Shown here piece after piece: positions 20,538 through 44,777 of a stretch of DNA of 64,000 nucleotides. Made by a program: the position numbers and the translations under genes. The stretch is from Bacteroidales bacterium (GTDB lineage: Bacteria > Bacteroidota > Bacteroidia > Bacteroidales > F082), in assembly GCA_017549805.1 (NCBI GenBank), contig JAFYNJ010000019.1, forward strand, positions 62,001-126,000, given 5' to 3'. Positions within the stretch are counted from its first letter, which is position 1, and every line of letters starts with the position of its first letter. Below the pieces are notes generated by a model. It was not told the DNA's origin. It did no database searches and saw nothing but the letters and a program-made list of their open reading frames with translations.

Positions 20538-20539
20538 GG

Positions 20540-21235
20540 CTATAGTGGGAATTCGTTTAACTCTTCTTTGATTTGTCCCCAGTTCGGCAAGTTCAAGTCC
20601 AGGATCTTCCTGAACGCCTTCGAGTGGGTACGGCTGAGCAGGTGCGCCATTTCGTGCAGCACCACATACTCAATGCAGTTCTTTGGCTTTTTGGCCAGCT
20701 CTATGTTGAATAGGATTTTCTTTTTGGCGGTTGAGCAGCTTCCCCAGCGGGCAGCCATTTTTCTCACCTCCCAATGCTCGGGGGCTACGCCCAACTTCTC
20801 GCTGTACTTCTCCACCATGGGTGCAATTACAGGTGTGAGATGATCTTTATACCAGGCATACAGCACCCCCTCAATATGTTGAGGTTCCGCTTGAGGTCTG
20901 ACGGTGATATTGATGTAGTCGCCCACGATCTCCACATGCTGAGGAAACCTTCCATCGCGAATCACTTTCAGTCGGTACAGTTGACCCATAAAGTAATGCG
21001 CCTCGCCCGACACATATTCCCTGGGCGATTGAATGTCAAACGAAGTCAGAGCTTTTCTTTTAGCCGTAATCCACGCCCATTTCTTGTTGATGTACAGTAT
21101 AATCTTCTCGTCAAGGTAGGATAGGGGCGCAGAAACGTGTACCCGTCCATCAGGAGGGTAAACAGAAAGGTGCAGGTTCTTAATCGGTTTCCTTTCTACT
21201 TGTATCTCGATATCATTGACGTTGAGCGATTGCAT
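20540..21235 (-). CDS. SprT/YgjP-like zinc metallopeptidase
   Basis: A 231-residue protein of the YgjP/M48-like family. The zinc motif is HEMAH (VVLHEMAHLL) with the downstream HSKAF and conserved MAARWGSCSTAKKKILFN. Such genes are often placed directly before hsdR in type I R-M operons, and here it precedes hsdR by 2 bp and is the first gene of the six-gene operon. A role in controlling restriction, for instance HsdR turnover, is possible but inferred. A TATCTTTG -7 box on the minus strand lies at 21271-21278. Confidence 0.85.
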   Translation of the reverse strand: MQSLNVNDIEIQVERKPIKNLHLSVYPPDGRVHVSAPLSYLDEKIILYINKKWAWITAKRKALTSFDIQSPREYVSGEAHYFMGQLYRLKVIRDGRFPQHVEIVGDYINITVRPQAEPQHIEGVLYAWYKDHLTPVIAPMVEKYSEKLGVAPEHWEVRKMAARWGSCSTAKKKILFNIELAKKPKNCIEYVVLHEMAHLLSRTHSKAFRKILDLNLPNWGQIKEELNEFPL

Positions 21236-21624
21236 CTCGACTTGTTAGCTCGTTGTCATTAATTAATACGCAAAGATACAAAATTTACCCGTCTTTCCTT
21301 TGAGTTTTAAAAAAGATTCCTACCTTTGCAACAATTCGGTTATCAAATCTCATAGTGACCCACATCACTATTCACGTTCTCAGAAGAAAAGCCTAGGAAA
21401 CATGAGTGTCAGCTGTAATGGTTGGCACTCTTTGTTTTTGCTCCGAAACAATGCCCCACCCGGCAGCGGAGTTCCGTGCTCCTCCGCTGCGCTTCGGAGC
21501 ACTCCTCATCTTGTTTATCCCGGCCACCGCACGAGCCTAAGCTGTCGGCACCAGCTGCTCCGTTCCACTCCGCAGCTGCCGCCGCCAGCCGCACCCCGGT
21601 TAATCGCCTACCGGGTGCCAACCC
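21236..21624. other. Intergenic region: promoters plus type B GC-rich repeat
   Basis: A minus-strand -7 box (complement of 21271-21278) serves the R-M operon. A plus-strand TACCTTTG at 21320-21327 points right but has no convincing gene behind it. The remainder is the GC-rich repeat B1 (21457-21619). Confidence 0.55.
21457..21619. repeat. GC-rich intergenic repeat family B, copy 1 (full)
   Basis: Contains the family core (CATCTTGTTTATCCCGGCC, then GAGCCTAAGCTGTCGGCACC, then CCGCCAGCCGCACCCCGGT). Related copies are at 36519-36663, 41439-41493 and 42110-42296, with a fragment near 45735, all in the same orientation. It ends 6 bp from the stop of the last gene of the TerY-P-type operon. Confidence 0.8.
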
Positions 21625-22890
21625 TTACTGTTTCTCTTGAATATCATACAATTGCCAATACTGCGCATTCATATATGCCTCTAGTGCTCCCTTTGGGACT
21701 ATTATTGTCACCATTAATTTACTATGGCTTATTTTTTCGCTGATAATAAAGTCAGGTCCAACTTTTGGTGGAGTTTTAGATTCCATAATTAATGTAAGGC
21801 TAAAAGTTCCTCCATATAAACTGTAATAATAGTTCCCAAAAGCATGTGATTGGATTCCTTTTACGCTAGATGGTATAGTAATAGAGCTTAGTTTTGAACA
21901 TCCAATAAGAGTATTTGATTCTATTATTTCAATACTATTTGGGAATTTAATTGAATTAAGTTGATCGCAATTTGAAAAAGCATCGTTTCCAATGCGTATA
22001 ACACTATCTGGTAAATCAATTGCTTTCAATGAACGACAACATGAGAAACTTGCTGCTCCAATTCCCTCTAATGTATTAGAAAGCTTTACCTCTTCTAGTC
22101 CGCAATTTTTAAATGCTTCTTCTCCGATGATTGTAATTGTGTCAGGGATAATTACTTTTTTAATAGGGCCACAATTGATAAAAGCACATTTATCAACCGC
22201 CGTAACCGAATAAATCAAACCATTATACTCAATAGTATTGGGTATTTGAATTATTCCTTCTGGCAACTTATATCCTTCCCAACAGCCCGTGCTATTATAC
22301 CGTCCAAAAGTTTTTGCAGGTGCCACAACACATGCCTCCATTCTCTTGGCATCTACTATTTTAAAATAAAGTTTGTTACCATTGTCGAAAACAATAAAGA
22401 AATCAAAGGAATCAGTACTGTTACTAGCAAAAACCCGATATTTTAAGCTGCCGTTGTTTAGAGGTTGTATTGGTCTAGTCGGATTACTTGTATGCTGCGG
22501 AGCGGTTGAAACTGGCTCCTTTACTTGATTATTCGCGGTATTGTCACTAATCCTTTCGGGTTGCTTTGACTTGCTTAATTGTTCAAGCTTGGTTAATGCT
22601 GCTTCATTGTCTGGATCTATCGCCAATAGTGCGTGTATAGTCGCTTTGGCTTTAACCATGTTTCCTTGCCTTTCATAGGAGTTAGCCAATAATAGGTATG
22701 CTTTTTCGAATCGTTTATCAGCCTCTATTGCAGCCTGAAAAAACTCCATTGCTTCAACATATTTTCCAACAACCAGTGATTTTTCGCCTATTTCACAATA
22801 TTCTGCAGCAGAGTAGCTGACAGCTTCGTTTTTCTCTGCCTCTCTACTCTTATCTGTTTTATTTGAAAACCATTTTGAAAACAAACTCAT
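21625..22890 (-). CDS. TPR module fused to BspA-type leucine-rich repeats
   Basis: A 421-residue cytoplasmic protein. Residues 1-110 (MSLFSKWFSNK, then EYCEIGEKSLVVGKYVEAME) are a TPR module closely similar to the N-termini of the proteins at 32559 and 22903. Residues about 140-200 form a beta-rich domain. Residues about 205-400 are LRR_5/BspA repeats (units such as AFKNCGLEEVKLSNTLEGIG and AFSNCDQLNSIKFPNSI). No signal peptide, so unlike surface BspA proteins this LRR probably acts inside the cell. It is the last gene of the 12-gene operon and clearly AT-rich. A recognition or partner-binding role is inferred. Confidence 0.8.
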   Translation of the reverse strand: MSLFSKWFSNKTDKSREAEKNEAVSYSAAEYCEIGEKSLVVGKYVEAMEFFQAAIEADKRFEKAYLLLANSYERQGNMVKAKATIHALLAIDPDNEAALTKLEQLSKSKQPERISDNTANNQVKEPVSTAPQHTSNPTRPIQPLNNGSLKYRVFASNSTDSFDFFIVFDNGNKLYFKIVDAKRMEACVVAPAKTFGRYNSTGCWEGYKLPEGIIQIPNTIEYNGLIYSVTAVDKCAFINCGPIKKVIIPDTITIIGEEAFKNCGLEEVKLSNTLEGIGAASFSCCRSLKAIDLPDSVIRIGNDAFSNCDQLNSIKFPNSIEIIESNTLIGCSKLSSITIPSSVKGIQSHAFGNYYYSLYGGTFSLTLIMESKTPPKVGPDFIISEKISHSKLMVTIIVPKGALEAYMNAQYWQLYDIQEKQ

Positions 22891-22902
22891 AACTAATTGT
22901 AT

Positions 22903-24201
22903 TTAATGCTGTTGTCCCGCATAAAAGAGGAGCACTATCAACCCTACAATTCCGAGTAAAATATACAACATTACTTCCGTAAATAGAATAAACAAAGTAA
23001 CTACTGCTACAACACCAATCGCAATGCCAATGAATTTATTTGCTTGTTTAGCATTCTCTCTTTTCTGTTTCTCAGCGTTTTTTATTTCATTATTACACCA
23101 TTTATTACCTTGTTCTCCCATCAGCGTAACTATCTGCGAACGTAATGATCTCTCCTTCATTAACGCATCGTCAGCTATTACGTATGTTGTTCCCCTGTCA
23201 TTTCTCTTTTTCTTCAAATATTTAACCAGAAGGTCTTTGTATAGCTTTTGTATCTGGTCTCTGATTGCATAACCTCTTGTTTGGGTTAACCTGCTGGTAT
23301 ATGTTTTTTGTGGGTTTAGGTTTTGTATTTTTGTTTCTATCTCTTTCAGTTCTAATAGAATATTATCTGCGTAACCATACACTCCATCAACTTCAATTAC
23401 GTTTTCTTGACATATAGTCTTGTAATCCGAAAATAATTGGTTTGTTATCGCCTCGTTCCTTTTTTCTTGAAAGGTTTTTGCGTCTGTGGTATGGTGTAAA
23501 TAGAAATCTAATGATTTTATTTTGTCTTCTATTAAGCCCAGCGCTTTCAGTGTTTCAGGAGTAAATGTATAAGCTCCATTTTCATTGATTAATTGTTCTT
23601 CGCAGATTCTACTATATTTTGTATATAGATCATTGATAATCGCTTGTATTTGTGAGGACTTAGAACAGTACTGATTAAAGACCCCGTCTTTGATTTTAAC
23701 GAAATCCGTTTCTTTTTTACCTAAGCTTTTTTCCAGTTCATGAATGCTCTTCTCGCTTTCCAAAAGCACATCGTTGTCTTCGTTTGAAAAACTTCCTAAT
23801 CTTAAACCATATTCATCTGTCTCAATCACTAACATGGTATATATCATGTTCATATACCGCTTCATTTCATTCTCCAGTTGAATATCCAAAGAAAGACCTG
23901 GAGTGTTTTGTGCCGGTTTTCTTGGCGTGAGAATTTCGAGTTTTTGGGTTATCTCAGCGACTTTATCGATCTTGCCCATCATTTGATAAATGGTCAACAT
24001 CCCTCGCAAAGCGACCGCACTGTCTTCATCAATCTCAGTGGCTGCTTGGTAGTATTCCAATGCCTGTGTGAGTTTCCCTTCATTAATCAGTTTTTGCCCT
24101 CGCTTACAATAATCCGTAACCGAAAGCTGTGCCTTCTGTGGGTCAACCAACTCCGTAGATGTCTGTTTGCCTTTTGAAAATAACCCGGACAACCAACTCA
24201 T
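22903..24201 (-). CDS. TPR module fused to coiled coil and C-terminal membrane helices
   Basis: A 432-residue protein. Residues 1-95 (MSWLSGLFSKGK, then DYCKRGQKLINEGKLTQALE) are the same TPR module as in the 32559 and 21625 proteins. A long charged helical region (about 105-380) follows, then two hydrophobic helices (FIGIAIGVVAVVTLFILF and YILLGIVGLIVLLFYAG) with a very short tail. The expected topology is a cytoplasmic body anchored in the inner membrane, so it could be the membrane effector or anchor of the system. It lies 12 bp before the TPR-LRR gene and 2 bp after the TerY-C-like gene. Confidence 0.78.
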   Translation of the reverse strand: MSWLSGLFSKGKQTSTELVDPQKAQLSVTDYCKRGQKLINEGKLTQALEYYQAATEIDEDSAVALRGMLTIYQMMGKIDKVAEITQKLEILTPRKPAQNTPGLSLDIQLENEMKRYMNMIYTMLVIETDEYGLRLGSFSNEDNDVLLESEKSIHELEKSLGKKETDFVKIKDGVFNQYCSKSSQIQAIINDLYTKYSRICEEQLINENGAYTFTPETLKALGLIEDKIKSLDFYLHHTTDAKTFQEKRNEAITNQLFSDYKTICQENVIEVDGVYGYADNILLELKEIETKIQNLNPQKTYTSRLTQTRGYAIRDQIQKLYKDLLVKYLKKKRNDRGTTYVIADDALMKERSLRSQIVTLMGEQGNKWCNNEIKNAEKQKRENAKQANKFIGIAIGVVAVVTLFILFTEVMLYILLGIVGLIVLLFYAGQQH

Positions 24202-24203
24202 TG

Positions 24204-24572
24204 TTAGAATCCTCCTCCCTTCAAGTCAAATGTTTCAACTTCTGTGACAACTCCGCTATTTCCACATTTCGGGCAAGTAACTTCTCTTTCTCCATGCCAA
24301 CACACAATGCTTCCACATTTTCCGCAGGTATAGAAACGCCTTTCCTCGCAATACGGACAGCCAGGATATTCGTCATCAAGCGCAACGGAGCCATGAACAC
24401 TCTTAGTGTCATACCCCTCTCGATGGGCTTGCTCAGCATTAACCCTGAACGCCCAAACAAACACATATTGATTGTGTCTGCTGTCGGCTCTATCAACTGT
24501 GATTCCGAAAGGTTGCTTGCACTTGGAACAAGCGCCCATCGTCACAAAAGCTTCTTTGGATAGTTTGTGCAT
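24204..24572 (-). CDS. Stand-alone TerY-C-like zinc-binding protein
   Basis: A 122-residue protein starting MHKLSKEAFV. The upstream ATG at 24599 would overlap the previous gene. It has four CxxC pairs: CSKC near residue 14, then CPYC, CGKC with a following CWH, and CPKC. The second half (GCPYCEERRFYTCGKCGSI) resembles the metal-binding TerY-C domain normally fused behind TerY vWA domains. Here it is a separate gene three genes downstream of the vWA gene. Probably a zinc-bound adaptor of the phosphorylation triad. Confidence 0.72.
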   Translation of the reverse strand: MHKLSKEAFVTMGACSKCKQPFGITVDRADSRHNQYVFVWAFRVNAEQAHREGYDTKSVHGSVALDDEYPGCPYCEERRFYTCGKCGSIVCWHGEREVTCPKCGNSGVVTEVETFDLKGGGF

Positions 24573-24580
24573 AAGAATAA

Positions 24581-25312
24581 CTATTGCAGGATAATACAAA
24601 TACGCCCTACCTCTTCAACCGAAATCGGAAGTTCTATGTAATAAGACTCTATCGCAATACCACGATAATTACTGTTGCTATGAAAATAATACCATATGTT
24701 TTCTTTGGCTCTTATTTTGTTTTTGACATCATAAAACACAGCATACAAATCCACATCATTCTTACTTTTAACCCTTCCTTTTATTTCAAAGTTGAAATTA
24801 AAGCACTTACTTTCATCTTCGTCATACATCTCAAACGACAAGTTGGTCATTTCCAAACCCGTTTCTTGTTGAAGATTAGTCAGAAACTCGACTTTACTGA
24901 GAAGATGCGCCTCTCGTTGTTCCTTTGTTGTCAATTTCTTTATAGGTCTTGGCGAAGGTGCACCTTGCACAGGTTGTTGGTTTTGAGCAAAACTTGATTT
25001 AGGTTGTGTCAATTGATTTATCCATCCTAATCCATACGCCAAACTTTGGAAAACCATAAATGTGAAATCATATTGAAAACCAGTCACAGCAACAAATTGG
25101 TTGCATAGATTTTCGCTTTGTGTATTCCATGAACCAATGGCAAGCATTTTTTGAGTATAGCCATCGGCAATGATAGCTCTTAAAATGTACTTCGACGCAG
25201 GTATTGTATCGAATGCCTGAAAATCGCTCAAAATGTTGACCAATCGGACATCTTTGATGATTTCTATACCATCAGTCTCTATAATGCTCTTTATAGCTTT
25301 GTGTAATTCCAT
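24581..25312 (-). CDS. Hypothetical protein with N-terminal helical domain
   Basis: A 243-residue protein, not firmly recognised. Residues 1-95 (LHKAIKSIIETDGIEIIKD, later FMVFQSLAYGLGW) form a helical domain of a type I recall at the N-terminus of varied Bacteroidota proteins; that is memory, not a search result. A Gln/Pro-rich linker (about 100-125) leads to a helix and a beta-rich C-terminal domain (about 150-240). No signal or membrane segment. Operon member between the 435-residue unknown and the TerY-C-like gene, AT-rich. Confidence 0.6.
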   Translation of the reverse strand: MELHKAIKSIIETDGIEIIKDVRLVNILSDFQAFDTIPASKYILRAIIADGYTQKMLAIGSWNTQSENLCNQFVAVTGFQYDFTFMVFQSLAYGLGWINQLTQPKSSFAQNQQPVQGAPSPRPIKKLTTKEQREAHLLSKVEFLTNLQQETGLEMTNLSFEMYDEDESKCFNFNFEIKGRVKSKNDVDLYAVFYDVKNKIRAKENIWYYFHSNSNYRGIAIESYYIELPISVEEVGRICIILQ

Positions 25313-25322
25313 TTACTTTGCA

Positions 25323-26630
25323 CTAATACTTTTGAAATCTAGTTATACCAAAATCTTGAAATAGAGGCTTGATTAACAAGTTCTCTCGTTTGTTATCAAT
25401 ACATGAATTGAAATAGCCAACAATAAGTGCTATTGCAACCTGTTCCAATCCTTTTGTTACCTGAAAGCCGTATGTTGAGTACTTATTATTTGAAGGGATT
25501 AAAGTAATGACAGAAACGTTTAATAGCTTGTTCTTCGAGATGACAAGGAATGATCGATGAGCATCTCCCAACTTATTATATGAAAAATCGGATGAGTGAG
25601 AAGCGTTTTCGACAAAAGATAATACTTGATGGTCATTGTGCAAATAATGGATGACTTGCGGGAAAAAACGTGACTGATATTCTTTAATCTCAAACAAATT
25701 ACCTTTATTACAAACCAAGTCAATAATCTTTTTCTTCAGATTGGAAATGTCATCATCAGCTCTGCCATAGTTCAAATTCAAATCCTTCTTTGTGATAATG
25801 CTAACCAAATCCAGCACTTTTTCTCTCGCTTTCTTTACGAAATTGTATGGTTCAAAATGAAGCAAGTCGTACAACTCTTTTGAAAGCATTCTGTCTGCTT
25901 CGTCATAATGGAAACCATCTCCATTAGAAAACACGCTGTTCGAAACATCTATGTAGCAATCAGAGAAATATATGGTATCCTTTACAAAAGTGTGAATATC
26001 CCAAATCAGTTCACCTTTCTTGTTAGCACCTAAACGTAGATAAGAATCTTTTTTACTCAACCTCAAAAAGTTCGCCTTGCTTATATGGCTTTGAAAAATA
26101 TAATACTTCTTGAAGTTGCGGAGAAAACTATCAATGCAGGATATGCTCTTTTTACCTGGCGAACTATAAACTTCTCCAAATTGTTCAAGGCAATAACCAA
26201 TATCTAAACCGTCAAAATAGCCATCAAAAGCTTTTAGATACTGCTCAAATAGTATTATCAATCGGCTGATATTGCCATTAGGTTTAACGCCATTATCCTC
26301 TTCAAAATAATCATATTCGTCCCAATGGTCATAGAGTATTGAGATTCCTTCCCCTTGAAATGAGATCCATCCATCACCAACGTTAACTGCATTCATGCTT
26401 ATGTATAGGAAAGGTCTTCCATGTGAACTGCCTCTATAAAAATCTTCGCTTAATGCAATTCCACATTCTGCCAATACTTTTTTCGTATTAGTCCATGGAT
26501 AATTAGGGCCATAGCAGTCATTCTCTTCCTGGCACCATTCAAGTTTACCGTCCTTCTCGCTAACACAACCAGGTAATAACGAGATGAATTTAAACAATAC
26601 GTCCTGAAAAACAGCTTCCTTCTTATCCAT
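25323..26630 (-). CDS. Hypothetical protein in the TerY-P operon
   Basis: A 435-residue AT-rich gene product I do not recognise. It is rich in aromatic residues and mixed alpha/beta. The N-terminal part contains CYGPNYPWTNTKKVLAECG and GWISFQGEGISILYDHWDEY. The C-terminal about 120 residues (FFPQVIHYLHNDHQVLSF onward) could be a separate domain. No signal peptide or membrane helix. It lies 15 bp after the PP2C gene and 10 bp before the next gene, so it is co-transcribed and probably a substrate or partner of the kinase-phosphatase pair (inference). Confidence 0.6.
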   Translation of the reverse strand: MDKKEAVFQDVLFKFISLLPGCVSEKDGKLEWCQEENDCYGPNYPWTNTKKVLAECGIALSEDFYRGSSHGRPFLYISMNAVNVGDGWISFQGEGISILYDHWDEYDYFEEDNGVKPNGNISRLIILFEQYLKAFDGYFDGLDIGYCLEQFGEVYSSPGKKSISCIDSFLRNFKKYYIFQSHISKANFLRLSKKDSYLRLGANKKGELIWDIHTFVKDTIYFSDCYIDVSNSVFSNGDGFHYDEADRMLSKELYDLLHFEPYNFVKKAREKVLDLVSIITKKDLNLNYGRADDDISNLKKKIIDLVCNKGNLFEIKEYQSRFFPQVIHYLHNDHQVLSFVENASHSSDFSYNKLGDAHRSFLVISKNKLLNVSVITLIPSNNKYSTYGFQVTKGLEQVAIALIVGYFNSCIDNKRENLLIKPLFQDFGITRFQKY

Positions 26631-26645
26631 ATTATTGTCTTTTCG

Positions 26646-27896
26646 TTAATCTTTCTCCTCCCAAACCAGCCTCACCCTAAACGGATGCTCCTCCATCTTC
26701 CAGACAAGCACACGCTCTTTTTCAGTAACGCCCACCTCGTCCTGATAAGGCACAAAGGCATCACCGTGGTATTCTTTCAGAAGAATGTCCATCTTCTTCA
26801 CCAGCTGAAGCTTTTCTGAATAACCTCTATCGATGTCGTTTTGGGCGTAGCGAAGTTCAATTCTGCTCTTCTCAGTATAACTTCCAGAAAGCTCTAAGCT
26901 GCTGCGTCTATCCTTGGCATCCATGATCTTTTTGTTGACGGAAAGAATCTCTGCCTTGGTCATAGCAATCTGCCAAAGAATAAACTTGGGCAAAGCTTCC
27001 TTCAGCCTGTCCTCGTCATATATGCAAGCAACCGACATGTCATCCTGACTGCCGCGCTTGCTCAACACCGGCAACGTTTCTTGAATGTCCGCAAAGGTGG
27101 CATCATGGCCATTAGTCACCAAGGATTTTGCCACTTTCACATAGAAGTTCACCAAATTGGTTTCCTCGCCAAACGAATCATCCATGCCATCTGAGCCAAG
27201 GAAAACAGCAATAGGGAAGCCACCGTCACCTTGGTAAGTGTAACGGAACTCATTTAAGGCATCAGAGTCACAAATCGAGGTGGTTTTGTTGAGGAAACAA
27301 CGGTCGTCCCACAGTACAGGCTCTTTCCATTGTGCGTCGTTGTCAAACGAAATCATCTTGCCGTCGCCAAGATGGAAAGCAAACCAATACTTTGGCGTGC
27401 TGACGTAGGCCATCAGCGTACAGCCGTAAATTTTTTCCAGCTTGTAGCCGTTTTGGAATTCTTTTCTGTATTGCTCTTCAACTTGGTTGTTTTCTTTTTC
27501 GGTTAGTGGGGTAGTGGCTGCATGTTGTTCAATACGCAGCTGCCACTGACTGATAATCGAGGAAAACAGTTGCCGAAACGCAACATCTATGGGCTTTTCC
27601 TTGCGGAAGTCCTGCTGGTCTATCTTGGTTTGAATTGCTGCTTGTTGGGTGAATGGTTGTCCGATGAGCAGGGCTTCGTCAATGTTGGTGACGAACTCTC
27701 TCACATTGTTTGTGGTGATCTCGGTGGCAAATCGGGCACCAACGTCACTGCGGAAGTAACGCTTGCCTCCGTGCCCGTCGCAAACAACGGCAATGGCAAG
27801 ACCTTTCTCGTCGATATGACTGTAAGAATAGTCTTGGCATACCTTATCCGTTGCCTTATGGCTTTCGCCCTGGCAATGAAAGTCGAAACACCTCAT
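26646..27896 (-). CDS. PP2C-type serine/threonine protein phosphatase of a TerY-P triad
   Basis: A 416-residue metal-dependent phosphatase that should reverse the phosphorylation made by the kinase at 30466. Motifs present are VCDGHGGKRYF, AFHLGDGKMISF, FLGSDGMDDSF and SQDDMSVACI, so the metal-binding aspartates are intact. The conserved N-terminus QGESHKATDKVCQDYS fits TerY-P-associated PP2Cs. The start at 27896 is used; ATG at 27917 is possible and would overlap the vWA gene by 10 bp. The C-terminal about 130 residues are helical (coiled-coil-like) followed by a short beta segment. Confidence 0.9.
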   Translation of the reverse strand: MRCFDFHCQGESHKATDKVCQDYSYSHIDEKGLAIAVVCDGHGGKRYFRSDVGARFATEITTNNVREFVTNIDEALLIGQPFTQQAAIQTKIDQQDFRKEKPIDVAFRQLFSSIISQWQLRIEQHAATTPLTEKENNQVEEQYRKEFQNGYKLEKIYGCTLMAYVSTPKYWFAFHLGDGKMISFDNDAQWKEPVLWDDRCFLNKTTSICDSDALNEFRYTYQGDGGFPIAVFLGSDGMDDSFGEETNLVNFYVKVAKSLVTNGHDATFADIQETLPVLSKRGSQDDMSVACIYDEDRLKEALPKFILWQIAMTKAEILSVNKKIMDAKDRRSSLELSGSYTEKSRIELRYAQNDIDRGYSEKLQLVKKMDILLKEYHGDAFVPYQDEVGVTEKERVLVWKMEEHPFRVRLVWEEKD

Positions 27897-27907
27897 GGGA
27901 CAATTAT

Positions 27908-28651
27908 TTAATCCCAATCGTCGGCATACGAGCTGCCGTCAACTTTGGTTGCGACTTCAGCGCCATCGATGTTGTCAACAGCGTTCTGCACCTCGCTAAT
28001 CACCTGGTCTTGTTTGGTGGTGTCGCCTGCAGTGCTGCTCTTGCTGCCGATCTGCGATGATGTAACGGCCACCACGCGGATAATCTGCTTCAAGGCCTCG
28101 ATGTTATGCACCGTAAACACGGCTTCATTGGTGCCAGTAAACATGGCCAACTTTTCTTTGTCGGCATCGTCACCAATGGCAATGGCAACCTTAATGGCAG
28201 ATTTAAACCAGTTGTTGCCTTGCAGTTTGGCCAATCCGGCTTCAAAATTGTCAGTGGGGGCACCGTCTGACAACAAGATGATGGCTGGAGCGAATGATCC
28301 GCTGGCCGACTGCATGAAGCCCTTGCTGCGTGACAGCTTGTTTTCCAATTCCTCACATGCTGCGCCAAGCGAAGTTAGGCCATTGGCCTGAACGTCCTGC
28401 CAAATAAACTCGTTGGCTAATTTTGGCTCACTGTAAAGCCATTTGCAACCTGTTGAGAATTCCAAAGCTGCTACTTTGATCTCAGCGTCGGGGTTGGTAA
28501 CGGAGATTTCGTCCAGCATGGGCAAAACATTAACCACAGCATCGTTGACAGCTCCAATCTTACTTCCGGCCATACTGCCTGAAGTATCAATCATGAAAAA
28601 AAGCGTCATGGTTCTGCGTGGTACACTTACGGTTTCATCTAGTAATGACAT
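27908..28651 (-). CDS. TerY-like von Willebrand factor A domain protein
   Basis: A 247-residue vWA protein with an intact MIDAS: FFMIDTSGSMAG (DxSxS), the threonine in ANGLTSLGAA, and ILLSDGAPTD. This is the TerY part of the TerY-P triad known from comparative genomics of tellurium-resistance and DNA-processing loci. It lacks the C-terminal zinc domain often fused to TerY; that function may come from the separate 24204 gene. It lies 16 bp after the helicase gene and is coupled to the PP2C gene. The last about 40 residues are polar and may be flexible. Confidence 0.9.
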   Translation of the reverse strand: MSLLDETVSVPRRTMTLFFMIDTSGSMAGSKIGAVNDAVVNVLPMLDEISVTNPDAEIKVAALEFSTGCKWLYSEPKLANEFIWQDVQANGLTSLGAACEELENKLSRSKGFMQSASGSFAPAIILLSDGAPTDNFEAGLAKLQGNNWFKSAIKVAIAIGDDADKEKLAMFTGTNEAVFTVHNIEALKQIIRVVAVTSSQIGSKSSTAGDTTKQDQVISEVQNAVDNIDGAEVATKVDGSSYADDWD

Positions 28652-28667
28652 AATCGATTATTTTTAG

Positions 28668-30455
28668 TTAGTTAATAGAATTTCCAAAAGAAGGGTGGGG
28701 CTTGTCCAAAACAGTAGCCCTCTTGTTCTGATATACTCGTTTGTAAATGTTGGCCACAATCGTCAACACCTCGTCGCAAATATTCTTGTCAGTATACTCC
28801 ATCTGAAAGAACTCAACATTTCTTATTTCATCAAGTTGGCTCGAATACTGGGTGGTATCAAAGGCGGCGATGATGGCCTCTATGATTTTCTGTAACTCTA
28901 AGTAGGCGTATTGATACCTTTTCACAGAATAAAGCCGTGTGTAACTGTTCAAGGTATATAGGATAACGGTATTGGTTGAACTCTGCTCAGCATTGCAGAC
29001 CAGACTCCTGAAGTCCTGGTATATTCTTGGCATGGTAGAAATGTCATGAGTGTTGCTGGTAGCTGCCTTTTCTCCTGAGAAGTGGCTCAGGAAGTCTGCA
29101 ACGCTTTTGTCAATGATAATGTCGCTATAGGCGATTGGCTTGATCAGATAAAGTCCGTTGAGCGACTTCACACGGCTCAAAGCCACATACAACTGTCCTG
29201 GAGCAAAGATATGGCTGCGTAGGTCAAGCACAATGTTGTCATATGTTTGGCCTTGTGACTTGTGTATCGTAAAGGCGTAGGCAAGCTTAACTGGGAATTG
29301 CTCGACTTTTTGATAATATGGCGTTTTCCTTACAAGCTCATGCTTGTTCGGGTTATATGCCATTTCGTATTTATAGTCTGTAGCCTTTGCTACCGAAACA
29401 ACTTCTCCTGAGCGATCCAAAAGGATTTCTATGCTTCTTCCGTCAAATCCCACAATCTCGCCAAAATCACCGTTAATATAACCTGCCTTCTTATAGCTAC
29501 TCGTGCAAATCACTCGTGCTCCTATCTTGAATTTCAAATCTCCGTCAAATTGTGAAGGCATGGTAATCTCATGGTATTTTACGGTGTCAAGCTGGATTTC
29601 GTCATTGTAGTCCATCACCGTTGCGTTGTTCGTTTGCCTTTCCTTGATGGTGATTTGCGCACAAACACTGTATTCTCTCCCCGGTAGTTTGCTCAACCTT
29701 TCGTTGTTTACGCTTCTAACTTCAGCGTTCGATGAAGCAATGTAAGGAATGTTTTGAGGGATAGTCCGTGGGGGAACAAGGCGTGTGTTGAGTTTGTTCA
29801 ACACAGCGGCATCGTTTATTATGTCCAACGAACGGAATTTGTCGAGCAGTTGCTCATAGTCTCTGTCGTTCTGATGTCTTATAGATTGTTTTAGTTCATA
29901 GAACTTTATGTTTGGCAGTTCTCTCTTGATGATATGGCTGTCGAAGAAGTAAATGCCTCCGTATTCATTGACGAGATACTTATAAACATCTTCTTCTTCA
30001 ACGATAGGTGGCAGCTGGAACATGTCTCCAACAATAATGACCCTTATGCCTCCAAATGGCGCACTGGAACGTCTTACCACTTGACATATCTTATTCATCA
30101 TTTCAAAGAAATCCGACCTCACCATTGATATCTCATCAAAGATAATTGTATCAAGAGAGTTGATTTTAGGCAGAGTGTACTGAACGTTTTTTACTGCATT
30201 GTAGTTCTTTGGATTCTGCCAGCCTTCATCAAGATTGTCAAACTCACCATAGAAGAAACTGTGGAACGTTTGGGCTGAGCGGTACACTTGTTTGGCAAGG
30301 TTGGTGGGACACAATATCTGATATTTGCCCAACCTTGGTGCAATTTCCCTTATCAGGTATGATTTACCTGTACCAGCTTTTCCTTGTATGATGGTGATGG
30401 GCGCTGGTGATTGTAGTATCTCGTCAGCTATCTTTTGCTGTTCCTTGTTTAACAT
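28668..30455 (-). CDS. Pif1/RecD-like superfamily 1 DNA helicase
   Basis: A 595-residue 5'-3' SF1B-type helicase. Walker A is [14 protein letters not shown], Walker B is [14 protein letters not shown], motif III is [13 protein letters not shown], and the C-terminal motifs are [14 protein letters not shown] and [16 protein letters not shown]. The last about 120 residues form an extra helical domain. It lies 10 bp after the kinase gene. Together with the FtsK-like ATPase it gives this operon two DNA motors. Confidence 0.88.
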
Positions 30456-30465
30456 CTTGAGTCGC

Positions 30466-31734
30466 TTATTCGGTTATGTGTATCTCGCCTTTATAGTTGT
30501 TGCCAAACGAAATCTTGATTCCGTTCTTTATTGGCATAAATTCGTTGGGTTGAACTTCTTTCAGTTTCCCGCTTGCGGTTTCCGCAGTCCATTTGTCTTT
30601 CGAAATGTTTTGCAGAAGCAACATGTTCTTGTCTTGTGGGTTAACCACTACTCTGGCATCTGGTGTGTTGTCGAAATCGATGAATAGGGGAGTGCCGTTG
30701 GTAAGAAGTAGGGTTCTCATTCCAAGCTTTAAGGTTCTGCTCACATCCACAGCATGACCACAGTTCATGCATTGGTGCTTCGTCTCGTCAACAAAGGTCT
30801 CCTCACCACAATGCGGACATTTCACCAATCTATCACGCAACGATGCCAATAGTTTTTCCCAATTCTGTTCAATCATGCGTTTTTGCGGATTCTTCAGCAT
30901 TTCAGGACTAAACTCCCGGATGAAGGTTTCACGAAGCTCTGTGGGAAACACTGGCCAACGGCGTATCACGTTCTGGTGGATTCCTCGTACAGGAAGATTG
31001 GTTTTGTTGTTCGGGTCATAGATGAACACGGCTTCGCTGCCATAAAACTTCTTCTCAAATGATTCGGTCATACACGGACAGGCCACTACTTTGGCTCCTT
31101 CAAAGGGATGGTTGGCATAGAACAACATGAAGAGAATAACCGATAAAGAGAAGCGGTCGCTGTATTTGTCGGGAATGCCTCCGGCAACAATCTCAGGTGC
31201 CATATAACGGGCTTTGCCCATGATGCCAGACTTTTCTCCCTGTGGCATCACATTGTCGTTGTCGCAGATCAGCACATCACCCGTCGTTGGGTCGATAAAG
31301 AAATTGCCATCGTTCAAGTCTTGGTAACTGTAACCAAAACGATGTAGCATCATAAAGCCGTTGCAGATCTTCATGGCGGCAGCCATCATGGCCTGGAACG
31401 ACTTGAAACTCTTCTTGGCCAGAAGGAAATTGCCAAACTCAAAATAGTTCTGTGGGCGAAGAGCCATTACATAACCAAAACTTCCCTGTTGCCGTTCGGT
31501 GATGCGCTCTGGCCATAGGAAGGCCGAGCTTGGCGCACCGTTCATAACATTATTCGCCAGATTGTTGTAGAAGTTCTGGTCGGGCACGTTATGGTACCAT
31601 TTCAAAGCCTTTGGCTGGCCGTTAAGGTCAACTAAATACACTATGCCTTGGCCGCCTCGTCCAAGCTCTTTCTTTATGGTTACAAAGCCTCCGTTGAGCA
31701 GGCTTATTCTATCTCCGTTTTTTAATTCTTTCAT
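30466..31734 (-). CDS. Serine/threonine protein kinase with zinc ribbon and C-terminal beta domain
   Basis: A 422-residue kinase. The glycine loop is [13 protein letters not shown], the ATP lysine is in PKALKWY, the catalytic loop YQDLNDGN stands in place of HRDLKxxN (D and N kept), DFG is replaced by CDNDN, and ARYMAPE follows. A zinc ribbon (CPHC, then CMNC, about 320-345) and an FHA-like or beta-sandwich C-terminus (about 350-422) come after it. This domain order matches kinases of TerY-P loci. The altered motifs resemble other bacterial kinases that retain activity. It lies 10 bp before the helicase gene. Confidence 0.88.
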
Positions 31735-31766
31735 TTATATCTCCTAGTTAATTCTTTTTCAATAGC

Positions 31767-32546
31767 TCATTTAAACCATATCTCCTCATTCACCGTGCTT
31801 TCCACCGTGTTCTCAATATCATCGGGAAGTGAGAAGAAAAAGTCAATATTGGTTAAAGCCTCAATCTCGTCTATGCTCTTCACATAGGTCGTTAATGGCT
31901 TGTGTCCGGCAACGTTTTCAAAATAGAATCCGACACCCTCATATCTTCCATCCTTGCTGATGAGCAGAACTTTATAAAAAGCGTCGGGTATCACAACAAG
32001 GTTATTACCAATCACTCCGTTTCGGTTTTCTCCAACCACGGGTCCAGCGGCGATGTAAACATTGCCATAACGTTGGGCATAGTCTCGGCACTTCTCTTCA
32101 AGCGACCTCCAGTCACCACCATTCAAATTGTGGTTCTGCGGGCAAACGTTGGTGAAATAACAACTCTCAAGCATGGCTTGTTCATCCCATTTCATATCAC
32201 CCGCTGGAGCAATATGACCTTTGTCCCAGCCAGTATTCCGATAATCATCGTTGTCTGCTTGCCTTCCTCTCACATCGGGGTCTTGGAAGAACCTGCCGTT
32301 GCGCTTGCAGGTTCCGTTCACTTCTTCATTGGTCAGCTCGTATGCCACCCAATTCGGCAATCTTGTGTCTTTGTTGTATGAAACCGAATATCCCTTGTGC
32401 GTGATGACTTGGTTGGCCCTATTGTCCACCACCCTTGGTGTTTCAATAGAGAGGGTGTCACCTTCTGCTTTCTGCACGTTGGCGCAGGAAAACTGCAGAA
32501 GCGTGAACGCCGCTATTACCCAATTCATCAGCAAGGTTGTATTCAT
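31767..32546 (-). CDS. DNA/RNA non-specific endonuclease, predicted lipoprotein
   Basis: A 259-residue beta-beta-alpha metal (NucA/NUC1-type) nuclease. The active-site motif DRGH appears as DKGH (NTGWDKGHIAPAGD), with the metal-binding asparagine in TNVCPQNHNLNGG. The N-terminus is a signal peptide ending in a lipobox (LLQFSC, Cys21), so it should be exported and lipid-anchored. That is odd in an operon of cytoplasmic signalling and DNA motors. A surface nuclease destroying incoming DNA is one reading. It lies 12 bp after the FtsK-like gene. Confidence 0.85.
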   Translation of the reverse strand: MNTTLLMNWVIAAFTLLQFSCANVQKAEGDTLSIETPRVVDNRANQVITHKGYSVSYNKDTRLPNWVAYELTNEEVNGTCKRNGRFFQDPDVRGRQADNDDYRNTGWDKGHIAPAGDMKWDEQAMLESCYFTNVCPQNHNLNGGDWRSLEEKCRDYAQRYGNVYIAAGPVVGENRNGVIGNNLVVIPDAFYKVLLISKDGRYEGVGFYFENVAGHKPLTTYVKSIDEIEALTNIDFFFSLPDDIENTVESTVNEEIWFK

Positions 32547-32558
32547 CTTTTTTTTGTT

Positions 32559-34268
32559 TCAAATGTATTCCAAGTCTTTTAAGATCTGTTCTAGTGCAAA
32601 TTCGCTTCCCACCAATACCCGTCTGGGTGAGGAGCCATTGAAAGGGCCAACTATTCCAGCTGCTTCCAATTGCTCGATAATAAGCCCTGATCTATTGTAA
32701 CCAAGTTTCAATTTGCGTTGAATCATTGATGTAGAGCCTTGCTGGGTTTGGACAACGATTCGGGCAGCTTCTTCAAACAAAGGATCACGTTCATTAGTGT
32801 CGGTAAAGTATGTTGATTCTTTTGGCTCCGTCAAATCTTCCAACAAATACGGTTCTGTGAATCCTCTTTGAGATCCCACGAAACTAGTAATGGAATCTAT
32901 ATCCATGCTTGAAACGACTGGCCCATGTACCATAGTTGGAGTACTGCCTGGTACCAGCACGAGCATTTCGCCATATTCTCTCAGTGTGTTGGCTCCAACG
33001 GCATCAAGCAACGAACGTGATTCGGAAGCCGAATTAACTCTGAAGGCAATACGTGTTGGTACGCAAGCTTTCATTTGGGCAGGGAATACGTCTGTTGAAA
33101 CTCTTGAGGTGCCTATGATGGCATGTATTCCCACTGATTTGCCTGATTCCAAAAGTCTTATCAATGGTGTACTCGCTTCTTTCCCTTTGGCCGAAACCAA
33201 TATGGAATAGTCATCAATGACGATAACGAGATAGGGGAGGAAACGGTGTCTCTCAGTGGGTGACAACCGTCTCTGTTTGAATATCTCATTATACTCAGAA
33301 ACGTTTCTGCATCCAGCAGCCTTTAACAGTTTGATGCGCTCATCCAATTCATAGCACAGCGAATTCAATGTATTGATGGTTTTGTCAGCATCGGTTAATA
33401 CGCTTTCGTCGCAGTTTGGCAATTTGGCCAGGTAATGCCGTTCAATCCGGTTATAATAATTGAACTCCAAACCCTTTAAATCTACCAACACCAGTTTCAG
33501 TTCTGCAGGGTGTATCTTGTGAAGCAGCGGAATGATCAGGGCGTGGCACAGTGTCGATTTTCCTGTGCCGGAAGCTCCTGCGATAATGACGTTTGGCGCT
33601 TTGGTCAGGTCAAAGCAGCAAACATCGTTGGTGGCTGTTTTCCCAACCACACAAGGCAGCACATAATTCGTGTTGGTGTATTCTTTTGAACTCAATAGTT
33701 CGTCCAGATGAATATTGCCGTCTCTAGAATCGTGTCCCGCCAAATAAAGATTGGGTGCTGGGAATCTGTAGTCTTTCAGCTCATATTGTGGGTCAAAGGG
33801 TGCACTGGTTTGACTCGGATTGCCAATGGTAATTTTAATTGATTCTCTAATCTTTTCCCTTAATTCTTCCTCCGTGTACTTTCTTTTGGGTTGAGCAGCT
33901 GCGGTCGCTTCAAGTTCTGTCTTGCGTCCTTTTATTTTGTCTAGCTGCTCTTGGGCACTTTTGCTCCCTGGGTCTATTGCCAGCAGTTGGTAGATGGCTT
34001 TCTCTGCTTCATTAACCTTCCCCTGTGCCAAATAAGCTTCGCTCAATCCAATATAGGCTCTAACATCGTGCTTGTTCGCTCCAATGGCTGCTTGGAAATA
34101 CTCCATAGCCAACACATAATTCCCTGCGGCCAATTGTTTTTGACCCTCTTCGCAATAGTTTCCAACAGTCTCCTGAGCTTTAGTGCTGACAATTTCTTCT
34201 GTGGTTTCGCTTGGAACCACTTCATCCTGCTGCGCCTTACTTGAAAACCATTTTGAAAAAATACTCAT
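32559..34268 (-). CDS. TPR module fused to FtsK/SpoIIIE-type DNA translocase with gamma domain
   Basis: A 569-residue protein. Residues 1-115 (MSIFSKWFSSKA, then NYCEEGQKQLAAGNYVLAME) are the shared TPR module. Residues about 180-480 are an FtsK motor: Walker A AGASGTGKSTL, Walker B YLVIVIDDY, then IIGTSR and RIAFRVNSASESRSLLD. Residues about 495-569 are an FtsK gamma winged helix (DPLFEEAARIVVQTQQGST and QLEAAGIVGPFNGS), which in FtsK reads KOPS. No membrane helices, so this is a soluble, sequence-guided DNA pump recruited by its TPRs. Confidence 0.88.
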   Translation of the reverse strand: MSIFSKWFSSKAQQDEVVPSETTEEIVSTKAQETVGNYCEEGQKQLAAGNYVLAMEYFQAAIGANKHDVRAYIGLSEAYLAQGKVNEAEKAIYQLLAIDPGSKSAQEQLDKIKGRKTELEATAAAQPKRKYTEEELREKIRESIKITIGNPSQTSAPFDPQYELKDYRFPAPNLYLAGHDSRDGNIHLDELLSSKEYTNTNYVLPCVVGKTATNDVCCFDLTKAPNVIIAGASGTGKSTLCHALIIPLLHKIHPAELKLVLVDLKGLEFNYYNRIERHYLAKLPNCDESVLTDADKTINTLNSLCYELDERIKLLKAAGCRNVSEYNEIFKQRRLSPTERHRFLPYLVIVIDDYSILVSAKGKEASTPLIRLLESGKSVGIHAIIGTSRVSTDVFPAQMKACVPTRIAFRVNSASESRSLLDAVGANTLREYGEMLVLVPGSTPTMVHGPVVSSMDIDSITSFVGSQRGFTEPYLLEDLTEPKESTYFTDTNERDPLFEEAARIVVQTQQGSTSMIQRKLKLGYNRSGLIIEQLEAAGIVGPFNGSSPRRVLVGSEFALEQILKDLEYI

Positions 34269-34295
34269 CTCATTATTGCGTTTATAAGCCTAACA

Positions 34296-35390
34296 TTACA
34301 CGTTTACCATCGAAAGCAGGTTCATGATGAACCAGCTGTCGAATCCTTGAAATACAATTCTCTTTGAGTTGCCGTCCTTCAATACCTCAATCCCATCCGA
34401 GTAAGGAGTGATGCCAACAAGCTTTTTGTAGGGTATCTTAACTCCTTTCTCTCTGGAATAGAAGATGAGGTTTTGGTTTGTGACATACAAATCGCCTACG
34501 GCCACTCTTTCCATATACTTGTGTTCAACAGGATGGCCTTTGGAACGTCCTGTATGGTAATACACGCCTTTCATCACCTTGAAGCTAAACCCGCCACTGT
34601 TCCTTACGGTCTCTCTTTCTATCTTCTCTTGGAAGAACGTAACGCCGTTGTAAGTCCAAAGCAATGATTCTGTTTTTGTCAAGATAACGGGAAGTTGAAC
34701 GAAGGTCGAGGGGAGCACTCCGTTAGCAAAATTCTTGAGTACCGTCATTTGGCCGAGTTTTGCCAAATCAGTGGTGGCGTATTTTGCTGGCAAGTGTTCT
34801 AAAGGTAATGCAAAGGCAGTGGCGTAGGAGCGTATCAGTCGCTCTTCTTGGTCGGTCATCATCCCGTCCTTCATGAAGTTTTCAGCGGCTTTGTTCAGCA
34901 CATACATGTACGCCTCGTTTTCATCTTCGGCACTAAGTGGAAGCACAGCGGCCACATCACGCACATCGCTTCTGACTTGTGCCTCAGTCGCACCGTTGGT
35001 GAAATAATTAACGAGATAGCCTTTGACAATCTTTTGCGATAGCTTGCCTAAAACTCCATCTTTGTTTACGGCTCCAGCTGTAATCTTCAGCAATGCCATG
35101 AGCTGCTTCACATTCTGTTCTATTGCATGGGTATAGGGGCGCCGAATAGCATCGGTGAATTTTTTCAATGCGTTACTGGCACACTCAGCCTTATCTTCGT
35201 CGTTGAGGAAGTTGTTGGTCTGCAGCTGCTTTACACTGCTGTTAAAAACGCTTGCTGTTGTTGGTTTGCACAGGAAAGAATAAAACAGCGTCTCTGCTTC
35301 TCGCAGTCCGTCTTCGTGCAGTTGCTCGCACTGGCTGTGTTTATTAGTCAGTAGCCCCGCTTTTTGTCCGCAGTACTTACAGGTTCCCAT
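34296..35390 (-). CDS. TerB-like protein with zinc knuckle and PH-like C-terminal domain
   Basis: The 364-residue first product of the operon. The N-terminus carries a zinc knuckle (CKYC near residue 4, with HSQC about 16 residues on). The middle is helical with a TerB-like segment (KDGMMTDQEERLIRSYATAF). The C-terminal about 100 residues (VAVGDLYVTNQNLIFYS, KKLVGITPYSDGIEV) resemble a bacterial PH/GRAM-like domain. I start it at 35390, not the ATG at 35414, because the likely -7 box (complement of 35412-35419) lies over that upstream ATG. TerB-like and PH modules suggest a membrane-surface sensor for the system (inference). Confidence 0.75.
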   Translation of the reverse strand: MGTCKYCGQKAGLLTNKHSQCEQLHEDGLREAETLFYSFLCKPTTASVFNSSVKQLQTNNFLNDEDKAECASNALKKFTDAIRRPYTHAIEQNVKQLMALLKITAGAVNKDGVLGKLSQKIVKGYLVNYFTNGATEAQVRSDVRDVAAVLPLSAEDENEAYMYVLNKAAENFMKDGMMTDQEERLIRSYATAFALPLEHLPAKYATTDLAKLGQMTVLKNFANGVLPSTFVQLPVILTKTESLLWTYNGVTFFQEKIERETVRNSGGFSFKVMKGVYYHTGRSKGHPVEHKYMERVAVGDLYVTNQNLIFYSREKGVKIPYKKLVGITPYSDGIEVLKDGNSKRIVFQGFDSWFIMNLLSMVNV

Positions 35391-35708
35391 TGTATCATCG
35401 ACATTGAACCGCAAATATAATCATTTTTTTCCTATCAACGAGTGCTAACGAGTGATTTTCAAAGCCTTTTTTGCCATTCTTATTTCGTTTTTCTTTGGGC
35501 GCGTCCCCCGGCGGCAGTGGCAGTGAGTCGATAGGGCAGTAGCATCTTGTAACCGCCGGCGGTCGGGCTTTCCGGGGGTCGCTTCGCTCCGTGCTCCGTT
35601 GCACTCCGCACCAAGCCCCTCCAATCCCTCGCGCGCTACCGCATCCCGGTCGTGCGGCTCATGAAACAATTTTGTATATTTGCAATCCTATCCCAAAACA
35701 AAAGAACA
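35391..35708. other. Divergent intergenic region with two promoters around repeat A1
   Basis: The minus-strand -7 box TATATTTG (complement of 35412-35419) has TTG (complement of 35436-35438) upstream with a short 16-bp spacer. This is the likely promoter of the whole 12-gene operon. A plus-strand TATATTTG at 35675-35682 serves the LRR gene. Between them is GC-rich repeat A1 (35489-35649). Confidence 0.65.
35489..35649. repeat. GC-rich intergenic repeat family A, copy 1
   Basis: A roughly 160-bp element starting TTTCTTTGGGCGCGTCCCCC, passing through CCGCCGGCGGTCGGGCTTTC and ending near CAATCCCTCGCGCGCT. Copies at 41186-41344 and 44778-44940 have the same orientation and are very similar over most of their length. 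Confidence 0.88.
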
Positions 35709-36485
35709 ATGCCAGTCCGTGAAAAAACAATGATAGTTGATGGCTTCACGCTTTCCCTCGACGGAAAAAGACTAATCGAAGCTTGCGATGCGGAAGAGTG
35801 TCATGTACCTTATGGCGTAGAAGTAATCGACACTTTGGCCTTTGCCTATAGGCAGAACATCAAAAGGATCTATCTCCCAGATACAGTGGTGGGCATCAAT
35901 GAAGATACTTTTATCGGATGTGATAACGTTGAGAGTATTGATCTTCCTAATACAATCACAAGAATCGGTCAAGCTGCTTTTCAGATGTGCATTCGTTTAA
36001 AATCGATATCAATACCGCCCTTAGTTGTCGGTTTAAACGACGCTTTGTTCACGCATTGCTTTTCACTTGAAGAAATAGTAGTTCCAGAAGGAATCTTAGC
36101 GATAGGAGAATACTGTTTCGCCGATTGCGAACAATTGAGAAGCATTCAATTGCCAGCATCATTGAGGTTCATTGAGACTAACGCATTCGATGATTGTCAC
36201 GATCTCACCATAAAAGTTCCCCATTCGTCCATTCTCGATGACTTTTATAACACGCACCCTTTTGGCGACCACTGTGAGTTTGTAAGATATAAAGCAACCT
36301 ATAAGGGAGATTGGGAATTGGATAAAAAGAAATGTGAGAGATTCCTCGCCGAACTGCGTTACAAACGTGAACGTGATGACTATGAATCAAGAAAAGAGAT
36401 GGGGTTGTTGACAAAAGAAGAGATTGAGAGGGAAGAAGCCATCTATTTTGATGCGATGTGTGATAGTGGTTTGGATGATTTCTAA
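35709..36485 (+). CDS. BspA-type leucine-rich repeat protein
   Basis: A 258-residue protein starting MPVREKTMIV. An upstream in-frame ATG at 35652 lies before the promoter box and is discarded. Residues about 30-185 are LRR_5 units (AFQMCIRLKSISIPPLVVGL, CFADCEQLRSIQLPASLRFI). The C-terminal about 60 residues are charged and helical. No signal peptide, so it is cytoplasmic. It is a lone gene between repeats A1 and B2, divergent from the TerY-P operon whose last gene also carries LRR_5 repeats. It may be a partner or competitor of that protein. Confidence 0.75.
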   Translation: MPVREKTMIVDGFTLSLDGKRLIEACDAEECHVPYGVEVIDTLAFAYRQNIKRIYLPDTVVGINEDTFIGCDNVESIDLPNTITRIGQAAFQMCIRLKSISIPPLVVGLNDALFTHCFSLEEIVVPEGILAIGEYCFADCEQLRSIQLPASLRFIETNAFDDCHDLTIKVPHSSILDDFYNTHPFGDHCEFVRYKATYKGDWELDKKKCERFLAELRYKRERDDYESRKEMGLLTKEEIEREEAIYFDAMCDSGLDDF

Positions 36486-36518
36486 TTCCAAAAAGCATTT
36501 TCCGTTTTTATATTAACC

Positions 36519-36663: not shown

Positions 36664-36673
36664 TTAAACTGTT

Positions 36674-41144: not shown

Positions 41145-41185
41145 TTTTCTTGGTATCTATCTTCTCCGCAAAGTTACTCATTTTT

Positions 41186-44765: not shown

Positions 44766-44777
44766 TGTGTGTTTCTT

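Follow-up and report, generated by a model that had tools for sequence, protein, structure and literature searches.

Does an operon that combines a protein kinase and a phosphatase with DNA-acting proteins represent one dedicated system, or a constant regulatory unit whose partners are exchanged? This question is raised by a 64,000-nucleotide stretch of contig JAFYNJ010000019.1 (positions 62,001 to 126,000, called the window in the following) from a Bacteroidales bacterium of the F082 lineage with a genome of 2.73 Mb. A preliminary description of the window had listed twelve minus-strand open reading frames (ORFs), and all of them were found between positions 35390 and 21625 (g01 to g12). It had also assigned three of them to the TerY-P triad, whose members are indeed present: a zinc-ribbon Ser/Thr kinase, a TerY-like vWA protein and a PP2C phosphatase. 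With moderate confidence we interpret the locus as a modular, phosphorylation-controlled TerY-P-type hub with plug-in cargo, which is most likely directed against incoming DNA.

A constant core with changing partners

Scanning with two short kinase peptide patterns revealed at least 73 related loci in named genomes, a number that is a lower bound because of the two short patterns used. The nearest ones belong to Bacteroidales or Bacteroidia metagenome-assembled genomes (MAGs), several of them derived from the rumen. Together with the window the comparison set comprises 74 loci, many of which are cut by contig ends, with 1203 called ORFs. Same-strand ORFs separated by gaps of less than 400 bases were counted as operon members, a rule that takes in housekeeping genes (hydrogenase, SUF) at some ends. 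The kinase family was recovered in 71 of the 74 loci, vWA in 67, PP2C in 62 and g01 in 19, and the family of a separate TerY-C protein in 37 loci besides the window, whose own copy was overlooked by the ORF picker. Rarer genes occur, window included, in seven loci (g03) or in four loci at differing positions (g05). The idea of one fixed twelve-gene system could not be maintained, as none of the 73 other loci has all twelve genes; L033, which is closest to the gene set of the window, lacks g02 and g05, and its g12 has no LRR part. What persists is the kinase-vWA-PP2C set, in many loci joined by TerY-C, and the other genes vary. The kinase is present in 8 of 99 genomes of the genus and PP2C in 6 of 100 relatives, the window genome included in both cases.

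In the window the core kinase (g04, 30466..31734, on the minus strand like the whole operon; Pfam Pkinase) bears C-terminal zinc-ribbon cysteines followed by a further tail. C306, C309, C322 and C325 are invariant in eight kinases, with zinc-ribbon Pfam matches below threshold, and K45, D139, N144 and D158 are conserved in 71 sequences. The core vWA protein (g06, 27908..28651; Pfam VWA) has the residues of the metal ion-dependent adhesion site, and its DxSGS/T/D motif is conserved in 72 sequences; the core phosphatase (g07, 26646..27917; PP2C_2, 3.5e-28) shares the motifs DGHGG, GDG, DG and DD with 62 sequences in total. A helicase gene, g05, sits between kinase and vWA in the window. The stand-alone zinc-binding TerY-C protein (g10, 24204..24572; TerY_C, 3.8e-9) can be regarded as near-core.

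The vWA tail is variable and ends in an acidic-Trp motif (...DDWD in g06) in 66 of 71 complete vWA proteins, an end that was found in none of 579 other operon ORFs and none of 490 non-operon ORFs. A role of this tail as ligand of a TPR carboxylate clamp was considered and dropped, as the alignment shows no clamp residues. The C-terminus of the nuclease g03 reads EEIWFK; Trp ends of nuclease homologues also occur just outside operons (L051, L054, L067/L068). Such an end may be a trait of the nuclease family, and no claim is made for it.

Tag domains are nearly confined to triad operons

Many of the variable genes are tied to the triad by shared domains, which we call tags, and a random assortment of neighbors, the outcome that would have spoken against a linked gene set, was not observed. 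The first tag is a domain of about 105 residues named after g09 (24581..25312), where it forms the N terminus (residues 1-106, window 24995-25312) in front of a C-terminal part lacking a Pfam match; g09 was found once in the window genome. The second, unrelated to the first, is the TPR tag. It opens g02 (32559..34268), g11 (22903..24201) and g12 (21625..22890), whose products share an amphipathic start of 12 residues (MSIFSKWF-like) followed by a TPR module; over their first 32 bases g02 and g12 are 91% identical. Behind the tag follow an FtsK motor-like domain and a gamma domain in g02, hydrophobic, membrane-like segments at the C-terminus of the variable g11 and a BspA-type LRR region (LRR_5, 1.4e-34) in g12, a candidate sensor. 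A few tag copies are located 45-90 residues from the protein end; otherwise they are terminal.

The related loci had been retrieved with the kinase as bait, and whole-genome searches for the tags are the unbiased tests. Among 99 genomes of the genus the g09-type tag occurs at eight places in six genomes, always on the contig of the kinase and at most 9 kb away from it; two kinase-positive genomes (G032, G047) are without it, and it is absent from all 91 kinase-negative ones. An order-wide draw of 295 genomes, a few of them shared with the genus set, contains the tag in three and the kinase in four genomes; all three are nested within the four, with the tag on the kinase contig, and none of the 291 kinase-negative genomes has the tag. 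Strong TPR tags (at least 67 bits) were detected at 15 places in eight genomes of the genus, all in triad-type operons, and the remaining 24 TPR places score at most 37 bits. Two of the 15 lie on a contig-end fragment starting with TerY-C in a kinase-negative genome that is 71% complete. With the N terminus of g02 as query, the tag is found three times in the window genome, each time in the operon, and the TPR-tag profile adds a fourth, generic match of 35 bits on another contig.

Profile searches of the fetched loci placed 54 of 55 g09-tag proteins and 20 of 20 TPR-tag proteins inside the triad operon. The single exception, L081:2326, lies upstream of g03 past a gap and is closely related to a tagged L033 protein. 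Enrichment of tags in the operon reached Fisher p values of 1e-12 and 1e-5 in these kinase-chosen loci. In 32 of 42 Bacteroidales-type loci a tag is carried by the gene directly after PP2C, and one or more tags occur in 35 of the 42 such loci that extend 5 kb or more beyond the kinase.

A tag profile built from Clostridial sequences alone matched the Bacteroidales profile with a probability of 97.3% (E 2e-11); 20 column-shuffled controls did not exceed 1.3%. A third group (Methylomonas, Selenomonas ruminantium and a Clostridia MAG) reached 94% with the Clostridial and 62.6% with the Bacteroidales profile, and in Methylomonas a probable distant version of the tag is present on five ORFs in a row after PP2C. 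An hhalign comparison of the Clostridial tag with an iterated g09 profile was set aside as circular, since that alignment contained both groups. Judged from the profile comparisons, the g09-type tag extends to Bacillota, and the plug-in organization is therefore probably wider than Bacteroidales. A profile search of the PDB with the tag returned an engineered protein (5e-12 over 37 residues), which we do not interpret, and otherwise nothing below 0.3. Phage collections gave no vWA and no tag match, and a PP2C scan of viral contigs was empty. The kinase search of viral sets returned one IMG/VR contig, which is not taken as phage because the genes visible on it are those of the operon and one for a type ISP enzyme. 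In a full-text literature search limited to openly licensed papers no description of the tags was found.

Different cargo behind the same tag

The g09-type tag is accompanied by 22 unrelated remainders and the TPR tag by five. Cargo that could be named by Pfam or PADLOC comprises FtsK-gamma, FGE-sulfatase, WG repeats, LRR_5 and TPR repeats, and in L030 the tag is fused to a DUF4011-helicase-restriction endonuclease protein that matches PDC-S37 and Hhe; 7 of 17 scanned Bacteroidales tagged proteins are without match at E 0.01. A pooled Pfam/PADLOC scan covered 38 of 147 candidates of at least 280 residues, and its matches are not traced to single proteins; other cargo proteins were scanned singly. 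The same type of cargo can carry either tag: FtsK-gamma proteins have the TPR tag in the window and in L030, whereas those of plasmid pE2-28 and of Xylanibacter ruminicola (L056) have the g09-type one, all opening with the common amphipathic start, and LRR_5 is joined to a g09-type tag in L058 and to the TPR tag in g12. The 205-kb plasmid pE2-28 of Prevotella sp. E2-28 (L121) encodes TerY-C, the triad, g01, an FGE-like protein, an exonuclease and FtsK, and four of eight genes listed after PP2C are tagged.

A comparison of L140, which is a contig from IMG/VR, with L056 suggests how cargo may be replaced. Kinase, vWA and PP2C are 95-100% identical at the DNA level; in the gene after PP2C protein identity amounts to 88% in the tag and 49% in the remainder, it recovers in g01, and in the FtsK gene beyond, which is cut by the contig end, it amounts to 79% in the tag and 34% in the readable remainder. 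These abrupt drops suggest exchange behind the tag. Similarly, g09 and L033:14606 are 74% identical in the tag and 26% in the remainder, and blastp puts the two remainders in different groups.

DNA-acting and other genes of the operon

Of the two predicted DNA motors, g05 (28668..30455) is a variable Pif1-like superfamily 1 helicase (PIF1, 5.5e-20) that retains Walker A and B. For g02 a motor function is uncertain, because the FtsK alpha domain is missing and Walker B reads DD, as in L030; host FtsK, L056 and pE2-28 have DE. The protein therefore does not show the full set of FtsK domains (alpha, beta, gamma) and Walker motifs expected for an active FtsK translocase. Over motor and gamma it is 53% identical to host FtsK, and since the gamma domains are nearly identical, g02 should bind the orienting sequences of the host, which we take to be the FtsK orienting polar sequences (KOPS). 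The lack of the alpha domain and the altered Walker B suggest a DNA-reading ATPase rather than a fast pump. The exported DNA/RNA non-specific endonuclease g03 (31767..32546; Endonuclease_NS, 8e-54) had been described as a lipoprotein nuclease. The nuclease domain is clear, and a lipoprotein nature is probable, with a hydrophobic N terminus followed by Cys; the lipobox is atypical.

The first gene, g01 (34296..35390), is a frequent companion of the core. Its start at 35390 corresponds to the ATG at residue 9 of the ORF, where the homologues begin as well. The earlier label TerB-like was rejected, as Pfam gives no TerB match; sub-threshold GRAM and Voldacs matches occur in 8 and 11 of 19 family members, in line with a weak PH/GRAM-like C-terminal region. 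The invariant residues C12, C15, H26 and C29 likely form a zinc site, and a PDB profile search with g01 gave no match. The variable g08 (25323..26630) has one homologue (L033, 53%); that it and g09 are without assignment agrees with the absence of Pfam matches. For g11, named a TPR-membrane protein at first, membrane-like segments were found and the TPR match is below the Pfam cut-off. Predicted domains lie above Pfam cut-offs in eight genes (g02, g03, g04, g05, g06, g07, g10 and g12), with FtsK_SpoIIIE, FtsK_gamma and TPR_19 in g02 and TPR and LRR_5 in g12.

Spacing between genes ranges from a 10-base overlap (g06/g07) to 32 bases. This applies if g10 begins at the internal ATG at 24572, which is supported by homologues and leaves an 8-base gap; as listed, the g10 ORF reaches 19 bases into g09. 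A Bacteroidetes-type -7 box is located 22-29 bases upstream of g01, and such boxes are only somewhat enriched in the window (51 versus a shuffle mean of 37.6). Known RNA families gave no match above threshold in window positions 20500-37000.

Recurrent partner cassettes and surroundings of the operon

The most frequent partner is a cassette, termed HXS here, of two radical-SAM proteins (in 21 and 20 loci), a peptidoglycan-binding protein in which His-x-Ser is repeated 7-12 times (16 loci) and an HxsD-like protein of about 95 residues (22 loci). We take it to resemble the HxsABCD system. It follows a tagged protein after PP2C in L035, L040, L051, L054, L075, L079 and others, and in L033 it is found between g01 and g03 instead. 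No literature link between the cassette and a kinase hub was found in the limited full-text search. PglZ and BrxL adjoin the triad core in L072, L076, L077 and L080, as if a switch controlled a machine resembling bacteriophage exclusion (BREX); L080 has in addition a DpdF-like helicase after g01, and PglX- and BrxC-like matches were seen among the 38 pooled partner proteins. A channel family (Ion_trans), of which one member was scanned, lies beside the triad in eight loci, including L033:8400-9176 and L073:9786-10547.

Type I restriction-modification (R-M) and McrBC genes flank the window operon as noted before, with a 389-base gap to the YgjP/type I R-M gene run. Their relatives were not found beside the operon in other loci, and they were discarded as conserved partners; as a peculiarity of this genome, the flanks tell little about function. 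A gene next to the type I R-M genes, at window positions 12543-13664, gives a partial-length match to the exonuclease VII large subunit. Two intergenic repeats of 64-67% GC, R1 (21440-21620, 36517-36660, 41431-41500, 42118-42291) and R2 (35480-35650, 41183-41343, 44772-44939), frame three units: the TerY-P operon, the McrBC pair and a gene for a PcrA/UvrD-like helicase, each with R1 on its left and R2 on its right. R1 occurs genome-wide at five places, all in the island, and R2 at three there plus one weak partial place elsewhere; no match to either was obtained in the searched loci of relatives. R1 folds better than shuffled sequences on both strands (z -4.2 and -3.4), R2 does not on its minus strand, and both look like module boundaries. 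Upstream of the operon, between R2 and R1, a divergent, untagged BspA-type LRR protein (35652-36485) may be a sensor related to g12.

Comparison with known systems

TerY-P triads near helicases, nucleases, McrB-like and WxG/FtsK genes are known from the literature (PMC4978471, PMC11090510). The TerY-P systems of Anantharaman, Iyer and Aravind (2012, via PMC4978471 and PMC11090510) resemble the present locus in vWA, PP2C and zinc-ribbon kinase with helicase, nuclease or FtsK nearby. The order is kinase-vWA-PP2C here, whereas it is vWA-PP2C-kinase in two plasmid triads compared, and TerY-C is a separate protein; tags and HXS cassettes do not appear in the excerpted TerY-P descriptions (PMC4978471, PMC11090510). 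The TerY-P system of Gao et al. (2020), whose kinase reportedly ends in an OB-fold and which reportedly is active without extra genes (PMC7699616, PMC11090510), shares kinase, phosphatase and vWA with our locus, where zinc-ribbon cysteines, a further kinase tail and many partners are found. In Actinobacteria a kinase with zinc ribbon and a beta-rich domain has been reported beside PP2C and vWA (PMC7159879). The tags recall effector-associated domains (EADs), small non-enzymatic terminal domains that bring diverse effectors under one system (PMC7159879), an arrangement also found here. In contrast to EADs, no triad protein carries a tag copy, adjacent copies are not closer to each other, and copies are confined to the operon in the searched genomes.

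CoCoNuT, the coiled-coil nuclease tandem systems, likewise have TerY-P added to a machine for defence against nucleic acids, and FtsK-like and LRR extensions occur there too (PMC11090510). Unlike these, the twelve genes are without McrB-, McrC- or HEPN-type Pfam match, McrBC being outside the operon. The methylation-associated defence system (MADS; PADLOC mad6, mad8) also encodes an FtsK/HerA-like ATPase in the same cluster as a kinase, and matches to mad6 (4e-11, partial) and mad8 (1e-23) were obtained among g01-g10, NCBIfam MAD6 lying far below its cut-off. A full MADS, which we take to comprise eight mad genes, is not present, and no convincing match to other components was seen in g01-g10. 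BREX is related through PglZ and BrxL around the same triad in four relatives; in the window it had no match among g01-g10 and none by Pfam in g11 and g12. The components of a BREX-related capture system centered on HerA/FtsK (PMC12839542) differ from those of the window operon.

The proposed hub and its alternatives

In the organization that we favor, the tags would serve to dock cargo, either to the hub or to one another, and the tail peptide of the vWA protein would offer a second docking site. The shared 12-residue amphipathic start and the hydrophobic hairpin of g11 would place the tagged assembly near the inner membrane, its activity would be set by the kinase/phosphatase pair, and LRR or other variable cargo could act as sensor. 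In the window, the FtsK derivative, the Pif1-like helicase and the exported nuclease would most likely attack incoming DNA together. The Hhe-like tag fusion, PglZ/BrxL in four loci and the type ISP enzyme in L056 surround the core, and such partners, as far as gene content can tell, favor defence. The role regulated by phosphorylation that the preliminary description had proposed is thus retained as a probable anti-invader function, whereas its fixed composition is not. We would also put forward, rather tentatively and with more doubt than belief, a bolder version: the g09-type domain would be an undescribed docking code, present in at least two phyla and probably in more, by which unrelated sensors and effectors are connected to an immune hub of kinase, phosphatase and vWA; recombination at its boundary would swap weapons and leave the switch in place, the acidic-Trp end would be the socket or a second dock, and HXS products would be a weapon.

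Several observations weigh against the favored organization. A tag is found on 74 of 367 non-core operon ORFs of Bacteroidales-type loci (74 of 269 without the g01 and HXS families), so that most partners are untagged, including g01, g03, g05 and g08 of the window, and both tags are absent from 7 of the 42 longer loci, including three of the four with PglZ/BrxL. By these counts the tag marks some of the partners and not all. None of the 55 proteins with the g09-type tag and the 20 with the TPR tag is a triad kinase, vWA or PP2C; one Clostridial operon has a second vWA with a tag (L084:1823-2827), which differs from its triad vWA. Adjacent tags are hardly more alike within loci than between them (25 versus 23% identity for g09-type, 39 versus 38% for TPR tags), and concerted evolution within a locus was not seen, with L084 as exception (neighboring tags 74-78% alike). 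The remainders in L140 and L056 still align at 49 and 34% and might have diverged fast instead of being exchanged, and g02 may act without DNA translocation. The acidic-Trp pattern was defined after the tails had been viewed; looser patterns match 68-70 of 71 vWA proteins, 0-8 of 579 and 6-9 of 490 others, and of five distant plasmid vWAs two have a terminal Trp and the other three an acidic end. Finally, the commonest partner, the HXS cassette of 21 loci, is not DNA-acting, and eight loci have an ion channel family.

Could the tags be generic TPR or helical domains that travel with the operon and encode no docking? TPRs are common, 24 weak generic TPR places occur in the genus and the majority of partners is untagged. 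The gap between 67 and 37 bits, the two genes of one operon that keep their tags while the parts behind diverge, the identical cargo type with either tag and the lack of the g09-type tag in all 91 and 291 kinase-negative genomes of genus and order draw make this improbable. Even slightly less probable is one dedicated anti-phage or anti-plasmid system with a fixed composition of twelve genes. The tight operon and the defence genes on both sides fit it, yet such a gene set is missing in 73 other loci, where g02, g05, g08, g11 and g12 are variable or lacking and the triad persists, as do TerY-C and g01 less strictly; locus comparison has largely refuted this reading. A hub outside defence deserves more weight, in which the same tagged cargo and phospho-switch would serve envelope stress, peptide modification or signaling and the DNA-acting partners would be incidental. 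The HXS cassette as most frequent partner leaves such roles open, and the Ion_trans family in eight loci and the exported and membrane-like partners in the window point the same way. We nevertheless consider it rather unlikely: the kinase is patchy (8 of 99 genomes), Hhe-like fusion, PglZ/BrxL and type ISP enzyme are grouped around the core, and the TerY-P triad alone is reported to be active against T7-like phages (PMC7699616).

Implications

Links of TerY-P to DNA-acting genes have been reported since 2012 (cited in PMC11090510), and no rule for membership of partner genes was met in the excerpts of that literature. A tag next to the triad predicts cargo and would provide a partial rule for which genes belong to a TerY-P system. 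In addition, HXS radical-SAM cassettes become connected to a signaling hub, and the tag could show how a bacterial protein kinase might control defence effectors.

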